DNA of 19,310 nt, from positions 1 to 19,310 of the forward strand of contig JAHFVB010000021.1 in assembly GCA_023264755.1 (NCBI GenBank), written 5' to 3'. The translations under genes and the position numbers were made by a program. Below are positions 13,150 through 18,584 of the stretch, piece by piece. The notes beneath the pieces were generated by a model. It saw only the letters and a list, made by a program, of their open reading frames with translations. It was not told where the DNA came from and ran no database searches. Within the stretch, counting starts at the first letter, position 1; the number at the start of each line of letters is the position of its first letter. Source of the stretch: Mycobacterium sp. (GTDB lineage Bacteria > Actinomycetota > Actinomycetes > Mycobacteriales > Mycobacteriaceae).

Positions 13150-13707
13150 GTGACCGAGCAGGATGACCAGACGATCGTCGATCACGGAGTTGGGGACCAA
13201 GACCACCTCCAGCGGCTATGGACGCCGCATCGGATGAACTACATCGCCGGGGCTCCGATGAAGGGCGGCTCGGCCGCCTCGAGCGAACCGTTCACCGACA
13301 TCCCCCACATGTCCGACGAGGACGGTCTGGTGGTCGCCCGCGGCGAGCTCGTCTACGCGGTGCTCAATCTCTACCCCTACAACCCCGGCCACCTGATGGT
13401 CGTGCCCTACCGCCGGGTGGCCGAACTCGAGGACCTCACCGAAGCCGAGAGCGCGGAACTGATGGCGTTCGCGCAGAAGGCGATTCGCGTCATGAAGGGG
13501 GTGTCCCGGCCGCACGGGTTCAACGTGGGGTTGAACCTGGGCAGCTCGGCCGGAGGCTCGCTCGCCGAACACCTGCACATGCACGTGGTCCCGCGCTGGG
13601 GTGGCGACGCCAACTTCATCACGATCATCGGCGGATCCAAGGTGATCCCTCAGCTGCTGCGCGACACCCGCGAACTGCTCGCCGCCGAATGGGCCAGGAC
13701 GCCATGA
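13150..13707 (+). CDS. HIT-family Ap4A phosphorylase (Rv2613c type)
   Basis: A 185-residue histidine-triad protein. The catalytic loop is H141-L-H143-M-H145-V-V, in which the middle His forms the nucleotidyl intermediate. It resembles the recalled M. tuberculosis Rv2613c almost throughout: LQRLWTPHRMNY, the YPYNPGHLMVVPYRRV block, and GGDANFITIIGGSKVIPQLLRDT. Rv2613c has been characterised as a diadenosine tetraphosphate phosphorylase that splits Ap4A with phosphate into ADP and ATP. The start is GTG at 13150, 7 nt beyond the thrS stop with no good ribosome site, so translation probably follows from thrS. Its stop overlaps the pgsA1 ATG (ATGA, 13704-13707). It is cytosolic. Confidence 0.93.
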   Translation: MTEQDDQTIVDHGVGDQDHLQRLWTPHRMNYIAGAPMKGGSAASSEPFTDIPHMSDEDGLVVARGELVYAVLNLYPYNPGHLMVVPYRRVAELEDLTEAESAELMAFAQKAIRVMKGVSRPHGFNVGLNLGSSAGGSLAEHLHMHVVPRWGGDANFITIIGGSKVIPQLLRDTRELLAAEWARTP

Positions 13708-14402
13708 GCGACGCCTATCTGTTGACCAGAGCGGCCTACGCGAAGCTGAGCCGCCCGCTCGCCAAGGCCGTCCTACGCCTGGGGCTGACCCCGGACAGCG
13801 TGACGATCCTGGGCACCGCCGGCACCGTCATCGCCGCGCTGACCCTGTTCCCGATCGGCCAACTGTGGTGGGGCGCCTTCGCAGTGTTCATCTTCGTGCT
13901 CGCCGACATGCTCGACGGGGCAATGGCGCGCGAGCGCGGATTCAGCACCCCCTTCGGCGGTGTGCTGGACGCGACCTGCGACCGGATCAGCGACGGCGCG
14001 GTGTTCTGCGGGCTCCTGTGGTGGGCGGCCTTCGGCATGCGCAGTACCGCGCTCGTCGTAGCCACGATGATCTGCCTGGTGACCTCGCAGGTGATCTCCT
14101 ACATCAAGGCCAGGGCGGAGGCCAACGGCCTCAAGGGGGACGGCGGCATCATCGAACGCCCCGAACGGCTCATCATCGTGCTGGTCGGGGCCGGCCTGTC
14201 CGGCGTGGGGTTCCTCCACGTGCCGTGGCTGGTGCACGTCGCGATGTGGCTGCTCGCCGCCGCCAGCATCGTAACCCTGGGCCAGCGGCTCCATGCGGTG
14301 CGGACCTCGCCAGGTGCCATGGATCCATTGGCCACCGATGCCACGCCGCCCACCGACGCCACGCCCCCCAGCGATGCGGCCGAGGAGCCGAGCGAGCAGT
14401 GA
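13704..14402 (+). CDS. pgsA1: phosphatidylinositol phosphate synthase (CDP-alcohol phosphotransferase)
   Basis: A 232-residue multispanning membrane enzyme. The CDP-alcohol phosphotransferase signature D-x2-D-G-x2-A-R-x8-G-x3-D-x3-D is complete, with Asp68, Asp71, Asp89 and Asp93 (DMLDGAMAR ... GGVLDATCD). It joins CDP-diacylglycerol and inositol-1-phosphate to give phosphatidylinositol phosphate, the precursor of PI and of all PIMs, LM and LAM. Hydrophobic helices cover about 30-50, 55-72, 97-125 and 150-190. The hydrophilic C-terminal tail (about 205-232) carries a short repeat rich in Ala, Thr, Pro and Asp. The ATG start overlaps the Ap4A phosphorylase stop, and its TGA shares bases with the GTG of patA. 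Position and family agree with Rv2612c. Confidence 0.95.
   Translation: MSDAYLLTRAAYAKLSRPLAKAVLRLGLTPDSVTILGTAGTVIAALTLFPIGQLWWGAFAVFIFVLADMLDGAMARERGFSTPFGGVLDATCDRISDGAVFCGLLWWAAFGMRSTALVVATMICLVTSQVISYIKARAEANGLKGDGGIIERPERLIIVLVGAGLSGVGFLHVPWLVHVAMWLLAAASIVTLGQRLHAVRTSPGAMDPLATDATPPTDATPPSDAAEEPSEQ
14337..14372 (+). repeat. 18-bp tandem repeat in the pgsA1 tail
   Basis: Two imperfect 18-bp units (14337-14354 and 14355-14372), with a partial third starting at 14373, encode D-A-T-P-P-T / D-A-T-P-P-S. They lie in the disordered C-terminal tail of PgsA1, outside the catalytic membrane core. Confidence 0.7.
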
Positions 14403-15358
14403 GCACACCATCGTCGGGACTGCCACGCATCCGCGGCGTCCGCGTCCCGTTGGGCGGCCAGCTCACCGATCTCGGGTATGCCGCGGGCTGGCAACTCGTG
14501 CGCGCGATGCCGGAGTTCGCTGCGCGCAACGCCTTCGAGACCGGTGCGTGGTACGCGTCGCGCGGGGGCGGGCCGGAGCAGCTGCGCAAGAACCTGGCGC
14601 GGGTACTGTCCGTGCAACCCGCCAAGGTGCCGGCACACCTGATTCGTGCTTCGCTGGCCTCCTACGCCCGATACTGGCGGGAGGCCTTCCGATTGCCCTC
14701 GATGGATCACCAGGCCATCGCCCGTCAGGTCCAAGAGACCAGCACCGGTAGCGAGCACGTCGTCGAGGCCCTGCGGGCGGGCCGCGGCGCCATCCTCTCG
14801 CTACCGCACAGCGGCAACTGGGATCTCGCAGGCGTGTGGCTGGCCAATACCCACGGCAAGTTCGCCACCGTCGCCGAGCGGCTCAAGCCCGAATCGTTGT
14901 ACCGGCGGTTCCTCGCCTACCGGGAAAGCCTCGGATTCGAGGTCATTCCGCTGACCGGCGGCGACCGGCCCCCCTTCGAAATCCTGGCCGAGCGCCTCCG
15001 CAGCAACGGCCTGGTGTGCCTGATGTCGGACCGCGACCTGACGCGCTCCGGGGTCGAGGTGGACTTCTTCGGCGAACCGACCCGCTTCCCCGCCGGCCCG
15101 GCCAAGCTCGCGCTGGAAACCGGTGCGGCCCTGGTGCCCATCCACAGCTGGTACGAGCCACGCGACTCGCGACTGGACCTCTACCCGCCACTGGACACGT
15201 CATCCGGCGACGTCCGCGTGATCACGCAGGCGCTGGCCGACCGCTTCGCCACGTGCATCGCCGCGCATCCCGCCGACTGGCACATGCTTCAGCCGCAATG
15301 GTTGGCCGACCTGTCCGAGCAGCGCCGCTCACGCCTCGAACCGGGGCGGGAGGGCTGA
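14399..15358 (+). CDS. patA: phosphatidylinositol mannoside acyltransferase
   Basis: A 319-residue LpxL/HtrB-type acyltransferase corresponding to Rv2611c. The active-site motif H-x4-D is H137-S-G-N-W-D142 inside LSLPHSGNWDLAG. Downstream LMSDRDLTRSGVEVDFFGEPTRFPAGPAKLALETGAALVP holds the conserved Arg-Asp and FFG blocks of the family. PatA transfers palmitate from palmitoyl-CoA to the 6-position of the mannose added by PimA, and acts at the cytosolic face of the plasma membrane. There is no signal peptide, which fits peripheral membrane binding. The start is GTG at 14399, overlapping the pgsA1 stop by 4 nt (GTGA). The stop TGA shares its last base with the pimA ATG. The open frame extends upstream to 13865, but only within pgsA1. 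Confidence 0.94.
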   Translation: MSTPSSGLPRIRGVRVPLGGQLTDLGYAAGWQLVRAMPEFAARNAFETGAWYASRGGGPEQLRKNLARVLSVQPAKVPAHLIRASLASYARYWREAFRLPSMDHQAIARQVQETSTGSEHVVEALRAGRGAILSLPHSGNWDLAGVWLANTHGKFATVAERLKPESLYRRFLAYRESLGFEVIPLTGGDRPPFEILAERLRSNGLVCLMSDRDLTRSGVEVDFFGEPTRFPAGPAKLALETGAALVPIHSWYEPRDSRLDLYPPLDTSSGDVRVITQALADRFATCIAAHPADWHMLQPQWLADLSEQRRSRLEPGREG

Positions 15359-16542
15359 TGCACATCGGCATGGTCTGCCCGTACTCGTTCGACGTGCCCG
15401 GCGGTGTCCAGGCGCACGTCTTGCAGCTCGCCGAGGTGATGCTGAGCTACGGGCACCAGGTCAGCGTGCTGGCGCCGTCCTCGCCGCACGTGACGCTGCC
15501 CTCCTACGTCGTGTCCGGGGGCAAGGCCGTCCCCATTCCGTACAACGGGTCCGTCGCCCGGCTGCGGTTCGGTCCCGCCACGCACCGCAAGGTGAAGAAG
15601 TGGATCCTCGAGGGTGACTTCGACGTCTTGCACGTGCACGAACCCAATGCCCCCAGCCTGTCGATGTTGGCGTTGATGGTGGCCGAGGGGCCCATCGTCG
15701 CGACGTTTCACACGTCGACCACGAAGTCGTTGACACTGAGCGTCTTTCAGGGCATCTTGCGGCCCTGGCACGAGAAGATCGTCGGCCGCATCGCGGTATC
15801 GGATCTGGCGCGCCGCTGGCAGATGGAGGCCCTGGGCTCCGATGCCGTGCAGATCCCCAACGGCGTGGACGTGGCGTCCTTCGCAGCGGCACCCAAGCTG
15901 GACGGATACCCGCGGCCGGGCAAGTCCGTGCTGTTCCTCGGCCGTTTCGACGAGCCGCGCAAGGGCATGGACGTCCTACTGGCCGCGCTGCCCACGCTCG
16001 TCGAGGCGTTCCCCGACGTCGAGGTGCTCGTCGTCGGGCGCGGTGACGAGGAGGCCTTGCGGGAAGAGGCCGGCGCGCTCGCCGCACATCTGACGTTCCT
16101 CGGACAGGTCGACGACGCGGTCAAGGCCTCGGCGATGCGCAGCGTGGACGTGTACTGCGCCCCCAACACCGGCGGCGAGAGCTTCGGCATCGTGCTGGTC
16201 GAAGCGATGGCCGCAGGCACCGCCGTGGTGGCCAGCGACCTCGACGCCTTCCGCCGGGTACTCGAGGACGGCGCGGCGGGCCGCTTGGTGCCCGTCGACG
16301 ACGCACCCGCGCTGGCCGCGGCCTTGGTCGAGGTGCTGTCCGACGACGCGAGGCGGCAGGGCTTCGTCGAGGCCGCCAGCGATGCAGTCCAGCGCTACGA
16401 CTGGTCGGTGGTGGCGCAGGAGATCCTGCGCGTCTACGAGACGGTGGCGGGGGCAGGCGTGAAGGTGCGTGTGGTCGGGTCGGCGACGACTCGGGACGCC
16501 AAGAAGGCCGGCCGGAGCGAAGCGACGAGGGGTCCGGCGTGA
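15358..16542 (+). CDS. pimA: phosphatidyl-myo-inositol alpha-mannosyltransferase
   Basis: A 394-residue GT-B glycosyltransferase of family GT4 that transfers mannose from GDP-mannose to the 2-position of PI, the first committed PIM step. The N-terminal Rossmann domain has GGVQAHVLQLAE (15-26), including the PI-binding region. His118, Arg196, Lys202 and Glu274 occur at exactly the numbers known for M. smegmatis PimA. The retaining GT4 E-x7-E is E274-S-F-G-I-V-L-V-E282. A C-terminal tail of about 20 residues rich in Lys, Arg and Ala (from about 375) is less conserved. The ATG start is in a TGATG junction with patA (1-nt overlap), and its stop overlaps the Nudix gene's GTG (GTGA). It acts at the inner leaflet, as do its neighbours' products. 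Confidence 0.97.
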   Translation: MHIGMVCPYSFDVPGGVQAHVLQLAEVMLSYGHQVSVLAPSSPHVTLPSYVVSGGKAVPIPYNGSVARLRFGPATHRKVKKWILEGDFDVLHVHEPNAPSLSMLALMVAEGPIVATFHTSTTKSLTLSVFQGILRPWHEKIVGRIAVSDLARRWQMEALGSDAVQIPNGVDVASFAAAPKLDGYPRPGKSVLFLGRFDEPRKGMDVLLAALPTLVEAFPDVEVLVVGRGDEEALREEAGALAAHLTFLGQVDDAVKASAMRSVDVYCAPNTGGESFGIVLVEAMAAGTAVVASDLDAFRRVLEDGAAGRLVPVDDAPALAAALVEVLSDDARRQGFVEAASDAVQRYDWSVVAQEILRVYETVAGAGVKVRVVGSATTRDAKKAGRSEATRGPA

Positions 16543-17573
16543 TCACGTGGATCGTGGTCGGCGCCCTGGTGGGGCTACTGGTCGCCATCGTCGTCGTGAT
16601 GGGCGCCTGGGCGTTGCAGACCGCGAGCCGGCTCAACCGACTGCACGTCAGATACGACCTGTCCTGGCAGGCGCTCGAAGGCGCGCTGGGCCGACGCGCC
16701 GTGGTCGCGCGTGCGGTGGCCACCGATGCCTACGGCCGCAGCCCGGCGGGCAAACAGTTGGCGGCGCTGGCGGCCGCCGCCGAACGGGCGCCCCGATCCA
16801 GCCGCGAGGCCGCGGAGAACGAGTTGTCGGCGGCGCTCTCACAGGTCGACCCCGCGTCGCTTCCGGTCGCGCTGGTGGCCGAGGCGGCCGACGCCGAGGC
16901 ACGGGTCTTGCTGGCCCGGCGCTTCCACAACGACGCCGTCCGCGACACGCTCGCGCTGCGCGAGCGGCCGTTGGTGCGCTGGTTCCACCTCGGCGGAACC
17001 GCGGCGATGCCGACCTATTTCGAGATCGCCGAACTCGCGGCCCAAGACGCCGTCGGACAGGTGAGCCGGCGCACGTCGGCGCGGGTGGTGCTGCTCGACG
17101 AGGACGGGTTCGTACTGCTGCTGTGCGGTTCGGATCCGGCTGCCGAGGCGCACGTCGCGCCACGCTGGTGGTTCACCGTCGGAGGGGCCGTGCAACCGGG
17201 GGAGCAGCTGCCGGACGAGGCCGCCCGCGAGCTCGCCGAGGAGACCGGCCTGCCGGTCAGCCCCGTCGACCTCATCGGGCCGGTCTGGCGCCGCGACGCG
17301 ATGATCGACTTCAACGGATCGGTGATGCGCAGCGAGGAGTTCTTCTTCGTCTATCGGGCGCAGCGGTTCGAGCCGTCGACCGTCGGCCACACTGTCCTGG
17401 AGCGCGAGTACCTCCACGGCCACCGCTGGTGTGACGCAAGCGCCATCCGGGCCCTCGTCGAAGGCGGCGAGGCCGTGTACCCGCTTCAGCTCGCCGAGCT
17501 GCTCTCCGATGCGATCGCCCTGGCCGACCGGCGGTTGGTGCCGCCAGCTCGCGAGCTGCAGTCGATTCGCTGA
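16539..17573 (+). CDS. membrane-anchored LemA-like / Nudix hydrolase fusion (Rv2609c type)
   Basis: A 344-residue protein. Residues ~2-24 form one transmembrane helix. Residues ~28-168 resemble a LemA helical bundle: R-L-N-R-L-H-V-R-Y-D-L-S-W-Q-A-L-E-G-A-L-G-R-R-A after the helix, A-E-N-E-L-S-A-A-L in the middle, and ARRFHNDAVRDTLALRE then MPTYFEIAE at the end. These line up in order with recalled LemA sequences. Residues ~180-325 are a Nudix domain with a perfect box G-x5-E-x7-R-E-L-x-E-E-x-G-L at 216-238. The Nudix part should hydrolyse a nucleoside diphosphate linked to another group; the substrate is unknown. The GTG start overlaps the pimA stop (GTGA), so it is co-translated with PIM genes. 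GDP-mannose, CDP-alcohol or dinucleotide substrates are attractive guesses only. M. tuberculosis Rv2609c is the positional counterpart. Confidence 0.9.
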   Translation: MITWIVVGALVGLLVAIVVVMGAWALQTASRLNRLHVRYDLSWQALEGALGRRAVVARAVATDAYGRSPAGKQLAALAAAAERAPRSSREAAENELSAALSQVDPASLPVALVAEAADAEARVLLARRFHNDAVRDTLALRERPLVRWFHLGGTAAMPTYFEIAELAAQDAVGQVSRRTSARVVLLDEDGFVLLLCGSDPAAEAHVAPRWWFTVGGAVQPGEQLPDEAARELAEETGLPVSPVDLIGPVWRRDAMIDFNGSVMRSEEFFFVYRAQRFEPSTVGHTVLEREYLHGHRWCDASAIRALVEGGEAVYPLQLAELLSDAIALADRRLVPPARELQSIR

Positions 17574-17625: not shown

Positions 17626-17641
17626 GATTTAGTACCAATTT

Positions 17642-17648
17642 GGAGGAG
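17642..17648 (+). promoter_or_regulatory. Shine-Dalgarno GGAGGAG of pdxS
   Basis: GGAGGAG is almost a full consensus. It is only 0-2 nt from the ATG at 17649 but about 7 nt from the GTG at 17655, so it argues for GTG 17655 as the true start. Confidence 0.7.
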
Positions 17649-17654
17649 ATGGCA

Positions 17655-18584
17655 GTGGATACCGGCGGGCAACAGCGAAGCGGTAACGGGTCGGTGGAGA
17701 CCAACCAGACGGGAACCGCTCGCGTCAAGCGTGGCATGGCCGAGATGCTCAAGGGCGGCGTCATCATGGACGTCGTCACCCCCGAGCAGGCGCGCATCGC
17801 CGAGGGCGCCGGCGCCGTCGCGGTCATGGCGCTCGAGCGCGTACCCGCCGACATCCGCGCTCAGGGCGGCGTGTCGCGCATGAGCGACCCCGACATGATC
17901 GAGGGCATCATCTCGGCGGTCACCATTCCGGTGATGGCCAAGGCCCGCATCGGGCACTTCGTGGAGGCGCAGATCCTGCAGAGCCTCGGCGTGGACTACA
18001 TCGACGAGTCCGAGGTGCTCACGCCCGCCGACTACGCCAACCACATCGACAAGTGGAAGTTCACCGTGCCGTTCGTGTGCGGTGCCACCAACCTGGGCGA
18101 GGCACTGCGCCGGCTCACCGAGGGCGCGGCGATGATCCGGTCCAAGGGTGAGGCCGGCACCGGCGACGTCTCCAACGCCACCACGCACATGCGCAAGATC
18201 GGCGGCGAGATCCGCCGGTTGGGGTCGCTGTCGGAGGACGAACTGTTCGTCGCCGCAAAGGAACTCCAGGCCCCCTATGAGCTCGTGGTCGAGGTGGCGC
18301 GGGCCGGCAAGCTGCCGGTGACGCTGTTCACCGCGGGTGGCATCGCCACCCCCGCCGATGCGGCGATGATGATGCAGCTCGGCGCCGAAGGCGTGTTCGT
18401 CGGCTCGGGCATCTTCAAGTCCGGCGACCCGGCCGCGCGGGCCGCGGCGATCGTCAAGGCCACCACGTTCTACGACGACCCCGACATGCTGGCCAAGGTG
18501 TCACGTGGGCTCGGGGAGGCCATGGTCGGCATCAACGTGGAGGACATCGCGCAGCCGCATCGCCTCGCCGAACGCGGCTGGTAG
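17655..18584 (+). CDS. pdxS: pyridoxal 5'-phosphate synthase subunit PdxS
   Basis: A 309-residue synthase subunit of the DXP-independent vitamin B6 pathway. It builds PLP from ribose 5-phosphate, glyceraldehyde 3-phosphate and ammonia supplied by the glutaminase PdxT. Catalytic residues are present: Asp39 (GGVIMDV), Lys96 (VMAKARIG) and Lys164 (RSKGEAGTG). All are offset by exactly 15 from the Bacillus Asp24/Lys81/Lys149, because the N-terminus is longer and rich in Gly, Gln, Asn and Thr. The phosphate-binding [15 protein letters not shown] and [12 protein letters not shown] segments are intact. It would form the usual dodecameric TIM-barrel core in the cytosol. GTG 17655 is chosen from the GGAGGAG spacing; ATG 17649 and TTG 17640 are in-frame alternatives. 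It appears to start a new transcription unit and is followed after 37 nt by tesB2. Confidence 0.96.

Follow-up and report, generated by a model that had tools for sequence, protein, structure and literature searches.

A diverged LemA-type membrane domain is the conserved neighbor of PimA in Actinomycetes, with a Nudix hydrolase as a mycobacterial accessory

Introduction

PimA, the phosphatidylinositol mannosyltransferase that adds the first mannose in phosphatidylinositol mannoside (PIM) synthesis, is a peripheral enzyme of the cytoplasmic face. Here we describe the gene that follows pimA in a Mycobacterium sp. contig (JAHFVB010000021.1, assembly GCA_023264755.1; the whole stretch analyzed, 19,310 nucleotides, is called the window), which encodes a membrane-anchored LemA-type domain fused to a Nudix hydrolase. 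The gene known from this operon position, Rv2609c, is the sixth open reading frame (ORF) of the operon and was described in a 2011 review as a mutT-domain protein and putative GDP-Manp hydrolase (PMC3229680; papers are cited here from portions of their text). GDP-mannose turnover beside PimA is an already published idea and not a new one.

Described systems offer precedents for holding enzymes at a membrane. MamQ, a LemA protein, has been suggested to be a hub organizing membrane proteins (PMC4902198), and the partner protein Ppm2 keeps Ppm1 membrane-bound (PMC5784251). The PIM synthesis enzymes have been placed in the mycobacterial intracellular membrane domain, in a description that uses PimB′ as the marker and does not name PimA in the portion cited (PMC5784251). 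A link from LemA to Rv2609c, its M. smegmatis counterpart MSMEG_2936 or PimA was not found in searches of the openly licensed literature, and may be mentioned elsewhere; the term LemA is absent from the main text of the MSMEG_2936 paper (PMC8151439).

Results

The conserved core of the gene is the LemA domain and the Nudix domain is accessory, a distinction overlooked by an earlier note on this DNA made from the sequence alone. The gene has the following parts.

16539..17573, + strand: LemA-Nudix fusion gene, 344 amino acids (aa), GTG start, final gene of the PIM operon.
16539..16542, + strand: GTGA overlap of the fusion-gene start codon with the pimA stop codon, read from the sequence.
16551..16607, + strand: membrane helix, residues 5-23, with lysine/arginine (K/R) absent before it and a K/R-rich segment after it; N-out, C-in predicted.
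16587..17039, + strand: LemA-type helical bundle, residues 17-167, from profile comparison and structure models (fold match made with relative L086).
17040..17063, + strand: linker, residues 168-175, with predicted local distance difference test scores (pLDDT) <50 at 168-172.
17064..17447, + strand: Nudix domain, residues 176-303, PF00293 E 1.3e-16 (Pfam match 177-303); its first strand starts at residue 176.
17184..17249, + strand: canonical Nudix box, residues 216-237, motif read in the sequence.

In the 118 genomes of the class Actinomycetes that we surveyed, PimA (threshold E<=1e-60) is present in 101, and all 101 of these carry a LemA-type domain. In 99 of the 101 genomes the domain is encoded on the pimA strand, 3′ of pimA and no more than 1.1 kb away, and in 92 the distance is within 300 nt, with a median gap of 63 nt; the 99 pairs include three short or broken pieces kept for their position (G163, G219 and G228), without which the count is 96 of 101. 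Genome G162 is split over contigs, with a PimA piece beside its domain copy, and in G159 the domain is on the opposite strand, about 1.6 kb from pimA. Two genomes of the class carry the domain but gave no match to PimA. Across the order, the domain was detected at E<=0.01 in 144 of 150 genomes.

The spacing of the pair and its other neighbors show some variation. In three genomes of genus code g64 the gap from pimA to the LemA-type gene is about 1.03-1.06 kb, and the single intervening ORF scanned in a gap of this type (L084:1837-2907) is AlkZ-like. We also considered whether gap ORFs between the LemA-type gene and its neighbors might be Nudix genes, and none of the eight scanned matched NUDIX. 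Four of these eight, all from Actinomycetes, are a DUF3048 gene (PF11258/PF17479) between the LemA-type gene and pdxS (L031:4541-5632, L038:4661-5713, L046:4565-5644 and L092:3342-4361), whose product is a possible second partner.

The Nudix domain has a much patchier distribution. By profile search, at least 34 of the 144 order genomes have a Nudix no more than 300 nt behind the domain (31 in frame, 3 out of frame), including 14 of 14 genomes of the window's genus. Among 50 order loci examined, a Nudix match follows the domain in 20 (L001-L018, L020 and L033), and in the remaining 30 no Nudix was detected behind the domain, which is there a stand-alone protein of 156-193 aa. In a further set of 80 named loci from mycobacteria, Nocardia, Antrihabitans and a few metagenome-assembled genomes (MAGs), 66 are fused, 12 have separate and mostly overlapping ORFs, and 2 have no Nudix match. 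The separate ORFs are joined by GTGA in L107, L133, L145 and L177 and by ATGA in L111, L123, L124 and L125, and are also found in L109, L115, L147 and L178. The locus without a Nudix match in L121 is cut by the contig end; L160, a Mycobacterium MAG, retains the LemA part (469-948), but the following 4 kb gave no Nudix match and the part is succeeded by a glycine-rich reading frame. Mapped onto a quick tree, the fused and split states require at least four changes, three of them forced by starred branches, and the arrangement is therefore labile while the LemA part stays. With the LemA-PimA pairing close to universal across the class and a Nudix only sometimes present, any account of the main function has to hold for proteins that have no Nudix.

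Two records stand apart from this survey. L125 is a Bifidobacterium breve MAG record with a mycobacterium-like copy, 73% identical, and is probably mislabeled or contaminated. A sequence closely related to the Nudix domain (G111:C1:8315907-8316347, E 3.6e-53) lies in a 510-aa open frame of an order genome without a LemA-type match and may represent either a fusion that has diverged or a Nudix on its own.

That the N-terminal part belongs with LemA is visible in family comparisons. Searched singly, the window protein has no match to PF04011 at E<=10, the window's own genome (an assembly 70% complete) has none at the same threshold, and single-protein searches of Pfam, NCBIfam and PDB sequences returned a significant match for the Nudix part only. 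PF04011 matched 17 of 34 sequences, a set that includes the window protein, at E<=1 (best 3.9e-4), and two PIM-operon relatives pass its cut-off of 26.2 bits (G198 with 29.3 and G156 with 26.8). Of the weak PF04011 matches, 20 of 20 lie in PIM operons with PimA upstream, in a hand-picked and not random set of mostly ~180-aa ORFs, two of them above the Pfam cut-off. The earlier note had placed a LemA-like bundle before the Nudix domain and had proposed to check it by comparison of hidden Markov models and against the T. maritima LemA structure; both comparisons bear it out. HHalign of the N-terminal family against LemA gave 98.2-99.3%, compared with about 1% for reversed controls, the profile matched LemA structure 2ETD at E 2.1e-7, and the predicted model of relative L086 has the same bundle fold. 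A blind search of the 118 genomes with profile A3 found the PIM-operon copies plus canonical LemA, the latter at E 1e-9 to 1e-19.

The PIM-type domains nevertheless differ from canonical LemA. Canonical sequences (8 + 12 examined) contain the stretch DLIPNLVETVKGYAAHE with small variations, and it is absent from the PIM-type rows; we therefore file the domain as a diverged LemA homologue and not as canonical LemA. The PIM-type domains form one group in the quick tree, on a long branch beside canonical LemA, and attach beside a PimA-neighboring LemA (L181), a placement too weak as proof of orthology. Within the window's genus, genomes G034 and G007 each contain a separate match to canonical LemA (G034:C1:4567674-4568096 and G007:C1:2821636-2822061), and each matched stretch includes one in-frame TAG.

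The single N-terminal membrane anchor described in the earlier note recurs in the relatives examined: a hydrophobic 19-mer occurs within the first 45 residues of 70 of 70 relatives (lowest mean 1.78). No K/R precedes the most hydrophobic 19-mer in 68 of these relatives and one residue does in each of the other 2, and the following 20 residues hold at least three K/R in all 70. By the positive-inside rule, this distribution predicts a cytoplasmic bundle.

The Nudix box GX5EX7REUXEEXGU is intact at residues 216-237 and in 17 of 17 fused proteins examined, suggesting that the domain is probably active; the canonical box and the fusion itself, supported by the PF00293 match, are as the earlier note had read them. 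In NCBIfam no specific Nudix family reached its cut-off (best 32.3 bits vs 200). Among PDB sequences the Nudix part matches the MutT/Nudix protein 1SJY best (E 1.8e-6), and it matches 2GT4, a GDP-mannose mannosyl hydrolase structure, weakly (E 0.58). Candidate substrates are GDP-mannose, a CDP-lipid and dinucleoside polyphosphates (ApnA). The local turnover or sensing of a nucleotide-linked donor or by-product that the earlier note had suggested gained no substrate evidence from these comparisons.

LemA also occurs beside PimA outside the class. In a phylum survey of 149 genomes (PimA-like threshold E<=1e-40, weakest rows left out, contig breaks not removed), a PimA-like enzyme was detected in 82 genomes that lie outside the class. 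In at least 28 of these a same-strand LemA-type gene follows at a distance of up to 300 nt, and in at least 11 more one lies within 4 kb. We examined 12 of the 28 loci, chosen and not random, and found LemA that is canonical by eye and PatA before PimA in 12 of 12; these stretches, cut at different lengths, also include PgsA in 8, HIT in 8, ThrS in 5 and PdxS in 3. LemA can therefore hold the same operon slot outside the class.

From the window and comparison, the gene is preceded by thrS, a HIT gene, pgsA, patA and pimA and followed by pdxS, and its place in the operon is that of Rv2609c and MSMEG_2936 (orthology by position and annotation). The neighboring genes in the window are as follows.

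13150..13707, + strand: gene presumably of the HIT family, in the place of Rv2613c / MSMEG_2932, from position, published operon order and locus comparison.
13704..14402, + strand: pgsA, CDP-alcohol phosphatidyltransferase, PF01066 (longer ORF, same frame).
14399..15358, + strand: patA, PIM acyltransferase, NF005919.
15358..16542, + strand: pimA, phosphatidylinositol mannosyltransferase (GT4), from Pfam glycosyltransferase domains, operon order and locus comparison.
17640..18584, + strand: pdxS, next gene after the fusion gene, NF003215, start approximate.

This order and the GTGA overlap agree with the earlier view of a fusion gene inside the PIM operon and tightly coupled to pimA, and the overlap points to translational coupling of the two genes.

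Discussion

We give roughly even chances to the proposal that the protein crosses the inner membrane once and that its cytoplasmic LemA bundle is a dedicated tether or organizer of the early PIM enzymes, PimA foremost. The single-pass anchor would place the bundle on the cytoplasmic side of the inner membrane, where it would bind PimA first and perhaps also PatA and PgsA. In mycobacteria, Nocardia and some relatives, where a Nudix is fused to the LemA part or encoded directly behind it, the same scaffold would hold a nucleotide-diphosphate hydrolase where GDP-mannose and CDP-diacylglycerol (CDP-DAG) get used. Such a role for PimA and its neighbors is suggested by the MamQ hub, the Ppm1-Ppm2 pair and the membrane-domain precedents together with the predicted cytoplasmic bundle.

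Several observations weigh against this proposal. For LemA/MamQ, the C-terminal part has been predicted to face the lumen or outside (PMC3905215, 2014), the reverse of our own prediction. The MSMEG_2936 knockout of M. smegmatis is viable, with a doubling time of 3.36 +/- 0.04 vs 3.18 +/- 0.14 h, and loses the glycerol-dependent switching of division symmetry, which complementation restores (PMC8151439). PimA is essential in M. smegmatis (PMC3229680), so that viability means the partner is not strictly required for PimA. Additionally, 43 of the 82 genomes with a PimA-like enzyme outside the class have no LemA-type gene within 4 kb downstream among the matches listed, and a conserved neighbor need not equal a binding partner.

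The division phenotype is central to a different explanation, in which the main task is control of dinucleoside polyphosphates: ThrS makes ApnA, a HIT-type phosphorylase splits it, the Nudix hydrolyses it, and LemA merely anchors the enzyme. The operon contains thrS, the HIT gene and this Nudix, a role in Ap4A/Ap6A levels has been proposed along with altered division symmetry in the MSMEG_2932 and MSMEG_2936 knockouts (PMC8151439), and 1SJY heads the PDB matches of the Nudix part. However, the division phenotypes of these two knockouts are opposite (PMC8151439), and 110 of the 144 order genomes keep the LemA partner with no Nudix behind it among the matches listed, so Nudix chemistry cannot explain LemA conservation; we consider this explanation unlikely. 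Control of the donor, in which the Nudix would set flux by hydrolyzing GDP-mannose, or else a precursor of the CDP-lipid type, close to PimA, fits a gene that lies beside those for PimA and PgsA and has been proposed in print (PMC3229680). Yet the NCBIfam Nudix models score far below their cut-offs and 2GT4 barely matches, and hydrolysis of its own donor at the site of use would need regulation, of which we see none; we find it equally doubtful. One could also argue for convergence, with an N-terminal helical bundle that is unrelated to LemA and merely resembles it, from the lack of a PF04011 match to the window protein and of a conserved DLIPNLVETVKGYAAHE stretch; we reject this as highly improbable.

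On a tether or organizer role for the LemA domain, its history can be sketched tentatively, as something we think possible and somewhat less probable than the role itself. LemA would be an ancient organizer of PIM synthesis in Actinobacteriota, canonical behind PatA-PimA in other classes, then diverged as the constant partner of PimA in Actinomycetes and, in the mycobacterial line, finally turned into a Nudix enzyme bound to the membrane. If true, this would be the second process assigned to the LemA family after MamQ and would suggest a general role of LemA proteins in bringing peripheral enzymes together in patches of the membrane. The LemA-type gene just 3′ of pimA in nearly all PimA genomes of the class gives this poorly understood family a concrete pathway, and the sixth PIM-operon gene, so far read as a Nudix enzyme, has a membrane LemA domain as its conserved core and the hydrolase as an add-on.

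Compared with known systems, the protein resembles the LemA family (PF04011; 2ETD, T. maritima TM0961) in its N-terminal membrane helix and helical bundle fold and shares the RR pair and the EN..L..aL, R..lAR..yND.V and YF[ED] positions; it differs in lacking both the DLIPNLVETVKGYAAHE stretch and the YPDLKA loop, in being arginine-rich and, for the window protein, in falling below Pfam detection as a single sequence and being fused to a Nudix. Rv2609c and MSMEG_2936 share the sixth-ORF place of the same operon and the Nudix/MutT domain, a likeness by position and annotation, whereas the published descriptions, in the portions cited, cover the Nudix part only (PMC3229680, PMC8151439). MamQ is alike as a LemA member tied to one membrane process and a proposed cytoplasmic-membrane hub (PMC3905215, PMC4902198); it differs, in a comparison by description only, in serving magnetosome membrane formation, with no Nudix mentioned in the portions cited. 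The Ppm1-Ppm2 pair belongs to other protein families and is a precedent for tethering only, in which a peripheral mannose-pathway enzyme is held by a membrane partner (PMC5784251).
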